This document shows, one piece after another, positions 12,609 to 62,842 of a stretch of DNA of 64,000 bases. Made by a program: the position numbers and the translations under genes. Source of the DNA: Halothiobacillus neapolitanus c2 (GTDB taxonomy: Bacteria > Pseudomonadota > Gammaproteobacteria > Halothiobacillales > Halothiobacillaceae). The notes under the pieces are model-generated. The model made no database searches. It was not told the DNA's origin and worked only from the letters and a program-made list of their open reading frames with translations. The stretch lies in the NCBI RefSeq assembly GCF_000024765.1, contig NC_013422.1, positions 639,501 through 703,500 of the forward strand, written 5' to 3'. How positions within the stretch are numbered: position 1 is the first letter of the stretch; every line of letters starts with the position of its first letter.

Positions 12609-12718
12609 GGGAAGCTCGAAAAACCAGTCATTCCCGCGTAGGCGGGAATCCGGCGCCTTGATTTTTCTGGGTTCCCGCTTTCGCGGGAACGACGAATAAC
12701 GGGTATTTCGAAGTGCCC
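12609..12718 (+). mobile_element. MITE copy 1 (dRS3-like core), 110 bp
   Basis: The element runs from GGGAAGCTCGAAAA to a terminal inverted copy ending AAGTGCCC. Inside are two hairpins, ATTCCCGCGTAGGCGGGAAT and GTTCCCGC..GCGGGAAC, linked by the conserved CGCCTTGATTTTTCTGG. It is flanked by the direct repeat ATTA (12605-12608 and 12719-12722), the expected target duplication. The ATTCCC-N8-GGGAAT core matches the neisserial dRS3 repeat. It has no coding capacity, so a transposase must act in trans. Confidence 0.85.
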
Positions 12719-14753: not shown

Positions 14754-14762
14754 TCTGCTTTA

Positions 14763-14909
14763 GGAATCTCTGATTCAATCAGACGTTCCGTGCGGCACAA
14801 GGATGTGCCGTCATAAACAATAATTTAAATTATTGTTTATGAAGAAAATCGAAAATCGCATTTTTTGATTTTCGCCCTCTGAAAATTCCAGGATGGAATT
14901 ATTCAGAGC
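14763..14909 (+). repeat. Five-hairpin repeat copy 1 (guaB-guaA intergenic)
   Basis: Five stems occur in order: CTGAT/ATCAG (14770-14782); CGGCACA/TGTGCCG with tetraloop AGGA (14793-14810); a perfect 30-base palindrome (14812-14841, arms beginning CATAAACAAT); CGAAAATC/GATTTTCG (14850-14874); and CTCTGA/TCAGAG enclosing AATTCC/GGAATT with loop AGGAT (14877-14908). Hairpin 2 contains ACAAGGATGT (14797-14806), identical to the core of the CsrA/RsmA in vitro selection consensus. The repeat ends about 9 bases before the guaA ribosome site AAGGAA, so it lies in the guaA leader if the genes are cotranscribed. Confidence 0.85.
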
Positions 14910-14930
14910 TTATTTTAAGGAAACAGACGA

Positions 14931-16517: not shown

Positions 16518-16570
16518 CGGGTACTGACCTCGTGTCAACTCAATCGTCCCGAACGCCACAAACAGGTTTA

Positions 16571-16721
16571 GGGAAGCTCTGATCTAATCAGAAATATCGT
16601 GTAGGGCGGGGATGTCTTGTCATGAACGATCACATAAGTGATTGTTCATGCAGATCATCAAAATCTCACGTTTTGATTCCCACCCTCTGACGTTGCAGGA
16701 TGGAATTATTCAGAGTCTTCC
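16571..16721 (+). repeat. Five-hairpin repeat copy 2 (downstream of guaA)
   Basis: The layout equals copy 1. Stem 1 is CTGAT/ATCAG (16579-16591). Stem 2 is AGGGC/GTCTT with loop GGGGAT and two G-U pairs (about 16603-16617). Stem 3 is CATGAACGATCAC/GTGATTGTTCATG with loop ATAA and one G-U pair (16621-16650). Stem 4 is ATCAAAA/TTTTGAT (16657-16677). Stem 5 is CTCTGA/TCAGAG with AGGAT at its apex (16685-16715). The ends GGGAAGCTCTGA and TCAGAGTCTTCC form imperfect terminal inverted repeats. The G-U pairs are possible only in RNA read from this strand. Confidence 0.8.
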
Positions 16722-16734
16722 GTCTACGACGGAA

Positions 16735-17651: not shown

Positions 17652-17761
17652 GGGAATCTCGAAAAACCCGTCATTCCCGCGTAGGCGGGAATCCAGCGCC
17701 TTGATTTTTCTGGGTTCCCGCCTGCGCGGGAACGACGAATCATGGGTATTTCTAGGTGCCC
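17652..17761 (+). mobile_element. MITE copy 2, left border of the hsd locus
   Basis: A 110-bp element in the same orientation as copy 1, beginning GGGAATCTCGAAAAACCCGT and ending AGGTGCCC. It contains the perfect ATTCCCGCGTAGGCGGGAAT hairpin and GTTCCCGCCTGCGCGGGAAC. Only a 3-bp flanking repeat (TCG at 17649-17651 and 17762-17764) is visible. Together with the inverted copy 3 at 24888-24997 it brackets the type I restriction-modification genes. Confidence 0.8.
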
Positions 17762-24887: not shown

Positions 24888-24997
24888 GGGCACCTCGAAA
24901 TACCCGTGATTCGTCGTTCCCGCGAAAGCGGGAACCCAGAAAAATCAAGGCGCTGGATTCCCGCCTACGCGGGAATGACGGGTTTTTCGAGGTTCCA
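24888..24997 (-). mobile_element. MITE copy 3, right border of the hsd locus
   Basis: A 110-bp element in reverse orientation relative to copies 1 and 2, beginning GGGCACCTCGAAATACCCGT and ending in ACGGGTTTTTCGAGG plus an eroded TTCCA. It has both internal hairpins intact (GTTCCCGCGAAAGCGGGAAC and ATTCCCGCCTACGCGGGAAT). No target duplication is visible. The tRNA-Arg 3' end lies only 9 bases away. Confidence 0.8.
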
Positions 24998-26734: not shown

Positions 26735-26805
26735 ATTAGTGTGTGCCTCTGATAAGGATAAGAACCGAGTAAAACTGAGCTTTTCATCAGTATATCTTGG
26801 TAAAT

Positions 26806-26952
26806 GCTGATTTATTCCATCCTTGGAATAAATCAGCGCGCTCATCGCGGTACCCGCCCGCGATGGCGCTCACGAATCAAAGACTGACCGTCTTTGTTCG
26901 TGTTGGGGCGTCCTGCCCCAAACGGGAAGCACTGAATAAATCAGCGCTTCCC
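26806..26952 (-). repeat. Five-hairpin repeat copy 4 (icd leader)
   Basis: Read on the minus strand: GGGAAGCGCTGA/TCAGTGCTTCCC (one G-U pair), TTGGGGC/GCCCCAA with loop AGGAC, ACGAACAAAGAC/GTCTTTGATTCGT (one bulge), CATCGCGG/CCGCGATG, and a perfect 13-bp stem GCTGATTTATTCC/GGAATAAATCAGC with loop AAGGAT. Both GGA loops are intact. It lies 72 bases before the icd start, in the sense orientation, and between icd and the divergent groES promoter. Confidence 0.85.
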
Positions 26953-27003
26953 TTGAAGTTTTATTGAAACAGCCCGCTTTTTGTACCCGAATGAAATTTC
27001 ACT

Positions 27004-48457: not shown

Positions 48458-49396
48458 ATGGCAGATCGACGTCTTAAGGTGTTCAACACCGTCGCGCGCT
48501 TGTTGAGTTTTACCAAGGCAGCCGAGGCCTTGCACACGACCCAGCCAGCAGTCACGTTTCAGGTTCGTCAGTTAGAGGAGCATTTTGATACGCGACTGTT
48601 TGACCGAACCCATAACCGTGTGACGCTGACGGACGTGGGGCATGTGGTGTACGAAATTTCTGAACGCATGTTCGAGCTCTATGATGAGATGGATCGACGT
48701 GTTAAAGAGATGACGGGCGAAGTTGGCGGTTCACTCAATATTGGCGCAAGTACGACCATTGCTGAAAACATGTTGCCAGCGCTGCTCGGTAAGTTCCGTT
48801 TAAAACATCGGGATCTTGCCGTTCGCTTAAAAGTGGGTAATACCGAAGCAATCGTATCCATGGTTGAACACAATGTTGTTGATTTGGCGATTGTCGAGGG
48901 AACGGTTGGAAATAAGAATCTGTTGGTCGAAACCTGCCGCCGTGATGAGTTGGTCGTCATTTTGCCGCCTGATCATCAATTGGCCGGTTTAGAGTCTGTT
49001 TCCCTTGACCAGCTAATGTCCTATGACTTTATCTGCCGCGAGGAAGGCTCCGGCACGCGTGAAATGGTACTGAACTATTTGATCGAGCACGGTTATTCAG
49101 ACGGTTGGGATGTTTGCATGGAGCTTGGGAGCCCCGAAGCGATCAAGGGTGCAGTTCAAGCGGGCATGGGATTGTCCATCATGTCTGCTTCCGGTATTAC
49201 CAAAGAACTCAAGCTCGGGCTGCTCAAAGCAGTGCCGCTGAGTCCGCGTTTGTTCCGTGATTTTTCTTTTGTCCGTCAGCGGCACAAGTTCCGTCTGCCC
49301 GCGATGGAAGATCTTCTGGAATTTTCTCGCGATTACTGTAGCAATAGTTCTCCAATGCATGACCTGGAAAGCATTCAAGCGAAAAACGCTACTTGA
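48458..49396 (+). CDS. LysR-family transcriptional regulator
   Basis: The 312-residue protein has an N-terminal winged helix-turn-helix (RLLSFTKAAEALHTTQPAVT and LEEHFDTRLFDR) and a periplasmic-binding-like effector domain (about 92-295). It resembles CysB/CysL-type and other sulfur- or selenium-linked LysR proteins only in general pattern, so the target is not assigned. It diverges from the DUF4124 gene. Confidence 0.85.
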   Translation: MADRRLKVFNTVARLLSFTKAAEALHTTQPAVTFQVRQLEEHFDTRLFDRTHNRVTLTDVGHVVYEISERMFELYDEMDRRVKEMTGEVGGSLNIGASTTIAENMLPALLGKFRLKHRDLAVRLKVGNTEAIVSMVEHNVVDLAIVEGTVGNKNLLVETCRRDELVVILPPDHQLAGLESVSLDQLMSYDFICREEGSGTREMVLNYLIEHGYSDGWDVCMELGSPEAIKGAVQAGMGLSIMSASGITKELKLGLLKAVPLSPRLFRDFSFVRQRHKFRLPAMEDLLEFSRDYCSNSSPMHDLESIQAKNAT

Positions 49397-49494: not shown

Positions 49495-49525
49495 ATTGCC
49501 TAGGTTTGGTCGTGCATCGACCACA

Positions 49526-49790
49526 GAATCTCTAATTATATTTGAGCTTCCGTGTGGCACAGTGATGTGCCGCCATGAACGAAGACATAAGGGCACCTCG
49601 AAATACCCGTGATTCGTCGTTCCCGCAAAACGGTAACCCAGAAAAATCAAGGCGCTGGATTCCCGCCTACTTGGGAATGACGGGTTTTTCGAGCTTCCCA
49701 TAAGTGATTGGTCATGAAGAAAATCAAAAATCATATTTTTTGATTTTCGCCCTCTGAAAATTATAGGATGGCATTGCTCAGAGGATTCCC
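49526..49790 (+). repeat. Five-hairpin repeat copy 3, split by a MITE
   Basis: The left part (49526-49590) holds GTGGCACA/TGTGCCGC with loop GTGA and the first arm CATGAACGAAGAC of hairpin 3. The right part (49700-49790) holds the second arm GTGATTGGTCATG, hairpin 4 (AAAATCAAAAA/TTTTTTGATTTT) and hairpin 5 (CTCTGA/TCAGAG with TAGGATGG inside). The loop of hairpin 2 has lost GGA, and hairpin 3 no longer pairs well, as expected for a disrupted, decaying copy. The terminator just before it suggests it is not efficiently cotranscribed with lysR. Confidence 0.8.
49591..49699 (-). mobile_element. MITE copy 4 inserted into a five-hairpin repeat
   Basis: The 109-bp element begins GGGCACCTCGAAATACCCGT and ends CGAGCTTCCC. 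It is flanked by ATAA on both sides (49587-49590, 49700-49703). Removing it and one ATAA restores the loop ATAA of hairpin 3, as found intact in copy 2 of the five-hairpin repeat. One internal hairpin has decayed (CCCGCAAAACGGTAAC). Confidence 0.88.
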
Positions 49791-49874: not shown

Positions 49875-50444
49875 TCAGAATCCGCCGTGTGCGCCCGCTT
49901 CCATCATCTTCATCATGGAATCACGAACGTGCTGAGCGTTGGATTTGAATGGCTCTGGCATATTTTTGCCGCCATGAACAAACATGTCCATGTTCAAACC
50001 ATACAGCCAGTAACGACCTTCTTTGTCTTCGACAACAGCGATACGGCAAGGCAGGTAGGCCGAGAAGTACGGGCTGAAATCAACCGCTTGACGTGCAATG
50101 GAAGGGCTGCAGTACTGATAAATCATCAGGTAGCGTTGTTTTTTGCCCGTTTCCAGTTCCAGCTGCTTGGACAATGGCATTTCACCAACGTTTTTCAGAC
50201 CGGTGCCGACAGAAGCTGATTCAATACTTTGTTTGATGTCGTCAGGGCCGAGGCCTTTGTCGACTTCCATGCGCCAAACGGTAGCAGCGCCCAAGTCGCC
50301 GCCGCTACTGACAAAGCGGTCATACATGCCGCTGTATACGTCCATAGCTTGCGGATCGAGCTTGTCTTTGATCGATAGGAAGCCGCAGCCAGAAAGAGAC
50401 ATGATTGCCACACCCAGTACGGATGCCTTCAAGAGATTACGCAT
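49875..50444 (-). CDS. DUF302-domain lipoprotein
   Basis: The 189-residue protein has a lipoprotein signal (MRNLLKASVLGVAIMS then the lipobox LSGC with Cys20). The mature part contains a DUF302-like domain with EMPLSKQLE, YQYCSPSIARQ and YLPCRIAVVEDKEGRYWLY, the latter typical of DUF302. It would be anchored in the inner or outer membrane facing the periplasm. Function is unknown. Confidence 0.82.
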   Translation of the reverse strand: MRNLLKASVLGVAIMSLSGCGFLSIKDKLDPQAMDVYSGMYDRFVSSGGDLGAATVWRMEVDKGLGPDDIKQSIESASVGTGLKNVGEMPLSKQLELETGKKQRYLMIYQYCSPSIARQAVDFSPYFSAYLPCRIAVVEDKEGRYWLYGLNMDMFVHGGKNMPEPFKSNAQHVRDSMMKMMEAGAHGGF

Positions 50445-62615: not shown

Positions 62616-62689
62616 GGGGTCTGTCCTGCTGGGTGTTGTTGCGATCAGTCGTCGGTGCGCGCAAATTGGCAAGTTTTTCCTATGTAAAT

Positions 62690-62835
62690 GCAGATTTATT
62701 CCATCCTTGGAATAAATCTGCTCGCTCATCGCGGTACACGCCCGCGATGACTCTCACGAATCAAAGACTGATGTCTTTATTCGTGTTGAGGCATCCTGCC
62801 CCAAACGGGAAGCACTGAATAAATCAGCGCTTCCC
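62690..62835 (-). repeat. Five-hairpin repeat copy 5 (mrcB-lpoP intergenic)
   Basis: Read on the minus strand it matches copy 4 closely. Hairpin 1 is GGGAAGCGCTGA/TCAGTGCTTCCC. Hairpin 2 is TTGGGGC/GCCTCAA with loop AGGAT and a G-U pair replacing G-C. Hairpin 3 is ACGAATAAAGAC/GTCTTTGATTCGT. Hairpin 4 is CATCGCGG/CCGCGATG. Hairpin 5 is GCAGATTTATTCC/GGAATAAATCTGC with loop AAGGAT, where the third pair is A-T instead of T-A in copy 4. It begins seven bases after the mrcB stop. Confidence 0.88.
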
Positions 62836-62842
62836 TATCCCG

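Follow-up and report, generated by a model that had tools for sequence, protein, structure and literature searches.

A MITE very probably nested in the loop of a mobile five-hairpin repeat in Halothiobacillus neapolitanus c2

At one locus of Halothiobacillus neapolitanus c2, two short repeated elements lie one inside the other, and this arrangement raises the questions of how it arose, why a single hairpin loop was struck, and what the interrupted element is. The locus belongs to a stretch of 64,000 nucleotides, here called the window (G000:C1:639501-703500, G000 being the organism's own genome), of a single-contig genome of 2,582,886 bp. The outer element, R, is a decayed mobile repeat of five hairpins (49525-49789, forward strand) and is split by M, an IS5-type MITE of 109 bp (49591-49699, forward strand). 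We consider it very probable that the whole is a nested insertion, a MITE within a MITE-like repeat. In the proposed history, R, with its IS5-type ends and 4-bp YTAA-like duplications, would have inserted downstream of a gene which we take to be of the LysR type, and M would later have inserted in trans into the hairpin-3 loop of R, duplicating ATAA.

The window copy of R is located between the end of that gene (48458-49396) and an opposite-strand reading frame (49875-50444), and the segment 49520-49800 folds beyond chance expectation (z = -5.55). Its parts, all on the forward strand, are hairpin 1, a terminal hairpin at the left end (49525-49551, 9/12 pairs kept), hairpin 2 (49554-49573, 7/7 pairs, with an AGTGAT loop lacking GGA), the left arm of hairpin 3 (49574-49586), the left copy of the target-site duplication ATAA, which is the hairpin-3 loop (49587-49590), M with its ends GGGCACCTCGAAA.../...TTTCGAGCTTCCC, the right copy of the duplication (49700-49703), the right arm of hairpin 3 (49704-49716, 10/13 pairs left with the left arm), hairpin 4 (49719-49748, 12/12 pairs), and hairpin 5 (49752-49783, 10/13 pairs, AGGAT retained in the loop). 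The 4-bp duplication bordering M is exact; the outer duplication of R is no longer clear, with CCAC on the left and CAAA on the right. Removal in silico of M and one ATAA yields a 155-nt R copy which aligns over its full length with 23 intact copies. This bears out the original prediction, in which such a removal rebuilt a repeat resembling a "copy 2" with the hairpin-3 loop ATAA. That copy was not specified and could be either of two intact copies on the forward strand of the window, both matched by the covariance model described below: the one at 16569-16722 (E 1.5e-31) has the loop ATAA, whereas the one at 14760-14915 (E 1.7e-50) has a different loop centre. Further M copies are present in the window at 12609-12718 and 17652-17761 (reverse strand) and at 24888-24997 (forward strand).

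The core pattern of M has 85 matches in the genome, 37 forward and 48 reverse, and the reversed control pattern has none. At 74 of the 85 sites, the flanks carry a 4-bp duplication matching at three or four positions (at all four in 49 cases), and the remaining 11 are without it. Removal of two sites of odd length from these 74 left the set of 72 used below, one of which is the inner member of a tandem M array near 515,448-515,834, so that its 4-bp match is not necessarily a true duplication. In this array (G000:C1:515448-515834; L069, L122), four M copies are arranged head to tail with a period of about 92 bp and share their ends. The ends of M, GGGCACCTCGAAAAACC, recur on a 1277-bp insertion sequence (IS) of which the genome holds two identical copies, and which encodes a 345-residue transposase scoring 307.9 bits against the IS5-family model NF033581 of NCBIfam, above the curated cut-off of 140. 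M thus has the terminal inverted repeats and short direct target duplications of an IS5-family MITE, and the transposase places the partner IS in the family. Judged from the shared ends and the 4-bp duplications, M is a non-autonomous derivative of this 1.28-kb IS and would presumably be moved by its transposase. Neither copy of the IS shows a duplication at its own ends in this genome, which therefore offers no direct view of its transposition. Scanning genome contigs gave 132 relatives of the transposase, the best 80 of which lie in 79 loci, mostly from beta- and gammaproteobacteria according to the record titles. In 53 of the 79 loci, 54 end pairs were recognised, with an exact 4-bp duplication at 26 distinct sites. 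The covariance model of R found no copy of R in 256 kb of the flanks of these IS relatives (65 of the 79 loci). A third repeat of about 250-320 bp with the inverted ends GGAACCTCTGATTGAATC occurs at L055, L056, L057, and L059 of G000 and is seemingly another IS5-type MITE.

M has entered the same loop more than once. It occupies hairpin 3 of R in the window copy (forward, duplication ATAA), at L002 (forward, AAAT), and at L018 (reversed, ATAA with one change), and the corresponding loop of R2, a second sequence family, at L006/L083 (reversed, ATAA). In a fifth repeat (L014/L089), M lies in hairpin 4 of R. A related element of about 168 bp with M-type ends occupies the hairpin-4 loop of an R copy in the relative G005 (L193, G005:C66:44587-44884) and is flanked by the duplication ATTC; at hairpin 5 of the same copy there is a palindrome of about 44 bp that has M-type ends and a loop with GGA. 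The locus L209 in a second relative, G009, had also been considered as an M insertion in hairpin 3 and was not counted, since only a fragment there is M-like.

The bases around the 72 M sites form a weak palindrome leaning towards AC-NNNN-GT (A at -2 in 54%, C at -1 in 47%, G at +1 in 49%, and T at +2 in 65%, around the 4 bp duplicated), and the 26 sites of the IS relatives lean the same way (15/26, 14/26, 16/26, and 19/26, respectively). The sequence of the hairpin-3 loop, AATCAC-NNNN-GTGATT, matches this lean. Under a target matrix built solely from the 67 M sites outside R-type repeats, 16 of the 17 hairpin-3 loops outscored more than 98% of window positions, and the last one stood at 91%. 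Among 72 insertions, the matrix predicted between 0.09 (all positions) and 0.19 (non-coding positions) in hairpin-3 loops, and four were observed; these numbers are approximate, as the test is rough, with 13 empty R loops listed by hand and coding regions crudely masked, one of the four occupied loops being of the R2 kind and empty R2 and R3 loops being left out. The roughly twentyfold excess over the matrix prediction may reflect something beyond independent base preferences.

One candidate for this something is that the transposase recognises R in its extruded form, as a hairpin or cruciform, a structure-directed choice of the kind one may suspect of insertion sequences targeting REP palindromes. 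It would account for four M copies in hairpin-3 loops and one in hairpin 4 (L014), for the related element in the hairpin-4 loop of G005, and for the excess over the sequence matrix. Palindromy at the other sites gives a divided answer: among the 67 sites outside R-type repeats, at least six mirrored pairs occur in 3, against 2.6 expected from matrix-weighted window positions, whereas comparison with matrix-simulated sites gives a borderline excess (p = 0.04 for the count, p = 0.02 for the mean). A general preference of M for palindromes outside R-type repeats is thus unsupported against weighted positions and borderline against simulated ones. The 26 sites of the IS relatives show no excess palindromy (p = 0.46), and 67 of the 72 M copies lie outside R-type repeats altogether. 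We therefore regard recognition of the extruded structure as unlikely to be the explanation. Since the matrix ranks the loops high and the other sites show no clear palindromy, the loop was, we infer, struck mainly for its sequence rather than as a hairpin as such, with an additional effect of the hairpin on M insertion being possible. At L127 (G000:C1:761161) and L144 (G000:C1:241427), both counted among the 67 sites, M lies within about 10 bp of the ends of R-type repeats and not in a loop.

The interrupted repeat is itself, to judge by its flanks and ends, a mobile element. Of 24 R copies given, three lack a recognisable end, and of the 21 that could be placed, 19 carry 4-bp duplications (TTAA, CTAA, and similar) in which three or four bases match; for three pairs of the 21, the flanks in G005 and G009 are nearly identical, which makes each pair one shared insertion. 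The ends of R, GGAACCTCTGATT, recur on an incomplete IS5-family element of G009 (L215), which is cut by the contig end so that one end is present, and whose transposase scores 284.5 bits against NF033581. R accordingly has the flanking 4-bp duplication of an IS5-type MITE and ends in common with an IS5-family element. R-type candidates with other ends were seen at L387 (G034), L379 (G035), and L399 (G048), the ends of L387, which does not have exactly five hairpins, resembling those of the IS of M; such differing ends suggest that transposon ends have been exchanged.

The five-hairpin plan of R was examined by comparison of its copies. Across the intact copies (23 in all), pairing holds in 94.4% of cells, and both sides have changed in 19 of 57 pairs. 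Four of five covariation measures exceeded all 500 shuffles and the fifth was reached by 4/500, with all slid versions lower, a comparison which is not a probability because the copies are related. A covariance model built from the 23 intact copies also matched, over the full length, R3 (66-73 bits) and two copies of R2 (56-58 bits, E 2e-16 and 1e-15); for scale, up to 39 bits are reached on the wrong strand of R, since the hairpins are palindromic. R3, which occurs twice on the reverse strand of the window (26798-26954, E 6.7e-19, and 62682-62837, E 7.1e-21) and also in G009 (L167, 326-481, and L204, 179-334), has the five-hairpin layout and the GGA loops of R with different stems and ends. 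At E <= 1e-6, the model found R-like elements in 22 of 76 genomes, its own included. Five of the 22 belong to the genus (G000 among them), a further six to the family, and the other eleven to different families of the class; in five of the eleven there are from 7 to at least 39 matches, the best 39 candidates per genome having been scored. When 27 elements from 20 of the 22 genomes (one to three each, G002 and G040 omitted) were folded unguided, 24 formed exactly five hairpins, and whole-length identity to an R copy of G005 was as low as 55%. Rfam returned nothing but a tRNA at gathering score in the window, and at five loci with R, R2, or R-type copies it gave no match at gathering score, including to TwoAYGGAY and to CsrB/Rsm-type families. 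The best permissive Rfam match, mir-7131 (E 0.003, 29.7 bits against a gathering score of 74), corresponds to the terminal palindrome of R2 and was rejected. No description of the R plan, of M, or of a CsrA-binding MITE was found among the papers listed from open-licence PubMed Central text, including the accessible portions of PMC4679880 and PMC4853749. Among mobile structured repeats, the R family appears to be an undescribed variant.

The loops of hairpins 2 and 5 raise the question of whether R has been kept as a functional RNA with two GGA hairpins like CsrA/RsmA sites, this copy having been inactivated by M. In the 24 five-hairpin elements, GGA falls inside the loop or no more than two bases from it at hairpin 2 in 22 and at hairpin 5 in 23, compared with 0, 2, and 0 at hairpins 1, 3, and 4, a count that is not independent because the loops are part of the model by which the elements were retrieved. 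Among the 23 R copies, hairpin 2 has GGA in 20, ACARGGAYGU in 12, and the exact ACARGGAUGU in 3, and hairpin 5 has GGA in all 23. The consensus selected for CsrA by SELEX is RUACARGGAUGU with a six-base loop, and most of the selected hairpins have four or fewer contiguous pairs, as stated in the available excerpts of PMC7652899. R loops 2 and 5 resemble CsrA sites and are putative sites of this kind, predicted from sequence. The pairs changed on both sides, the likeness to the SELEX consensus, and the recurrence of the GGA loops across divergent elements speak for a functional RNA, but the stems of R are longer than those of most SELEX hairpins in the same excerpts (PMC7652899), two relatives lack R at three orthologous loci, and the window copy has lost pairs in hairpins 1, 3, and 5. 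Nor is there an orientation bias of R relative to genes, since among the co-directional neighbours of 42 copies, as given by simple calls of open reading frames of 100 amino acids or more, 10 copies are sense and 8 antisense; a role of R as a cis-acting mRNA leader was rejected on the same count. We consider retention as a functional RNA doubtful. Equally tentative is the broader proposal that R constitutes an undescribed gammaproteobacterial family of mobile five-hairpin RNA cassettes, in which the two CsrA/RsmA-type GGA hairpins are kept while stems change and ends are exchanged, with the result that different IS5-type transposases move them, and which would act as a transposable Csr decoy or regulator, broken time and again by M-type MITEs at hairpin 3.

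The original prediction had further proposed that hairpin 3 and the GGA loop of hairpin 2 decayed after the disruption, that hairpins 4 and 5 are better kept, and that the copy is a natural loss-of-function control. The described pattern is partly present, as hairpin 3 has lost pairs, the hairpin-2 loop is without GGA, and hairpin 4 is intact; hairpin 5 is not better kept, having lost as many pairs as hairpin 3, and hairpin 1 is worn as well. GGA is also missing from hairpin 2 in 3/23 intact R copies. For hairpin 3, the window copy has lost 3/13 pairs against 9/299 in the intact copies (p = 0.010), and the three M-carrying copies pooled have lost 5/39 (p = 0.015). The other four hairpins of the window copy have lost 6/44 pairs (p = 0.066), and given these losses outside hairpin 3, the copy is to be seen as worn in several hairpins. 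The other two M-carrying copies keep 11/12, 7/7, 11/13, 10/12, and 13/13 pairs in hairpins 1 to 5 (L002) and 11/12, 7/7, 13/13, 11/11, and 12/13 (L018). The data thus weakly suggest decay specific to hairpin 3 after insertion; that the disruption caused the decay is not borne out, since other hairpins are worn too and L018 is fully paired in hairpin 3 despite carrying M. The description as a loss-of-function control is likewise unsupported because R is a mobile repeat with at most a putative function.

Whether R and M arrived separately can be judged from the other interrupted copies and from orthologous loci. For the M copies in the five repeats, the nearest relatives are found elsewhere; ranked by similarity to the M of the window, those of the other compound copies stand 7th to 43rd of 71. 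The R parts of the three R compounds compared are nearest to intact R copies, that of L002 being 92% identical to L037 and 68-70% identical to the two other R compounds. That several R-type copies of the genome carry M at the same loop could mean that R and M spread together as a single compound element, the alternative named in the original prediction as the one that would overturn it, but the opposite orientations of M (in the hairpin-3 cases, two forward and two reversed), the two kinds of duplication (ATAA in three and AAAT in one), and the separate kinships of the M and R parts at different loci contradict it and make it extremely improbable. The ordered nested history, with M entering the loop of a pre-existing repeat, is upheld by the exact duplication, the rebuilt R, and the independence of the events. 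The window locus lacks both R and M in G005, where the flanks are 91-93% identical, and in G009, and both are likewise absent from the loci of L002 and L018 in these two relatives; we infer that R was gained by insertion at the window locus rather than lost in the relatives. An empty site with an intact repeat, anticipated as confirmation for the window locus, was instead found at the sister locus L006, where G009 has an uninterrupted repeat of the R2 kind (L369) with the loop GTAA and G000 carries M. This R2 copy has no evident hairpin 1 and scores 31.7 bits with the covariance model, below the wrong-strand score, so that its identity rests on the DNA match to the G000 locus.

Taken as a nested insertion, the locus represents ordinary transposon biology, and the interrupted repeat R is its more interesting part. 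It provides a clean case in which an IS5-type target preference largely explains repeated strikes on one loop of a repeated hairpin, and it exposes a repeat family with a fixed five-hairpin plan, fixed places of the GGA loops, and changing stems and ends. If the loops of R bind CsrA, a mobile element would be spreading binding sites of a global regulator.

With IS5-family insertion sequences and their MITEs, M shares the transposase family, the terminal inverted repeats, the 4-bp duplications, and the many short non-autonomous copies; both the link between M and the 1.28-kb IS of this genome and the lean towards AC-NNNN-GT come from the present analysis, and neither is described in any paper listed for the genus. 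Insertion sequences that target REP palindromes include IS1397, ISKpn1, and IS621 and, within the IS5 family, ISNm1106, according to the accessible part of PMC1525189. Like M, these insert recurrently into a repeated intergenic palindrome, in one case at the axis of palindromy (PMC1525189, same part). In contrast to them, M is a MITE with 67 of 72 copies outside R-type repeats, and the loop fits its short target motif; with 5/72 copies in R-type repeats, M does not insert exclusively or mostly into a palindromic repeat. Among small mobile repeats of bacteria, Correia/NEMIS, ERIC/RU-1, and RU-2 are, in the excerpts available from PMC2229807, short and non-autonomous like R, some with RNA structure motifs. 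Unlike those repeats, R has five separate hairpins with GGA mostly in the second and fifth, and its relatives have several kinds of ends. Correia elements are defined by characteristic ends and a TA duplication, which sets apart both R, with ends GGAAC... and YTAA-like duplications, and M, with ends GGGCACC.... Finally, CsrA/RsmA-binding RNAs have hairpins with ANGGA loops (PMC7652899, available excerpts), as does hairpin 2 of R with ACARGGAYGU in 12/23 copies, and R differs from them in having two predicted sites, on long stems, in a mobile repeat that is inserted without orientation bias.
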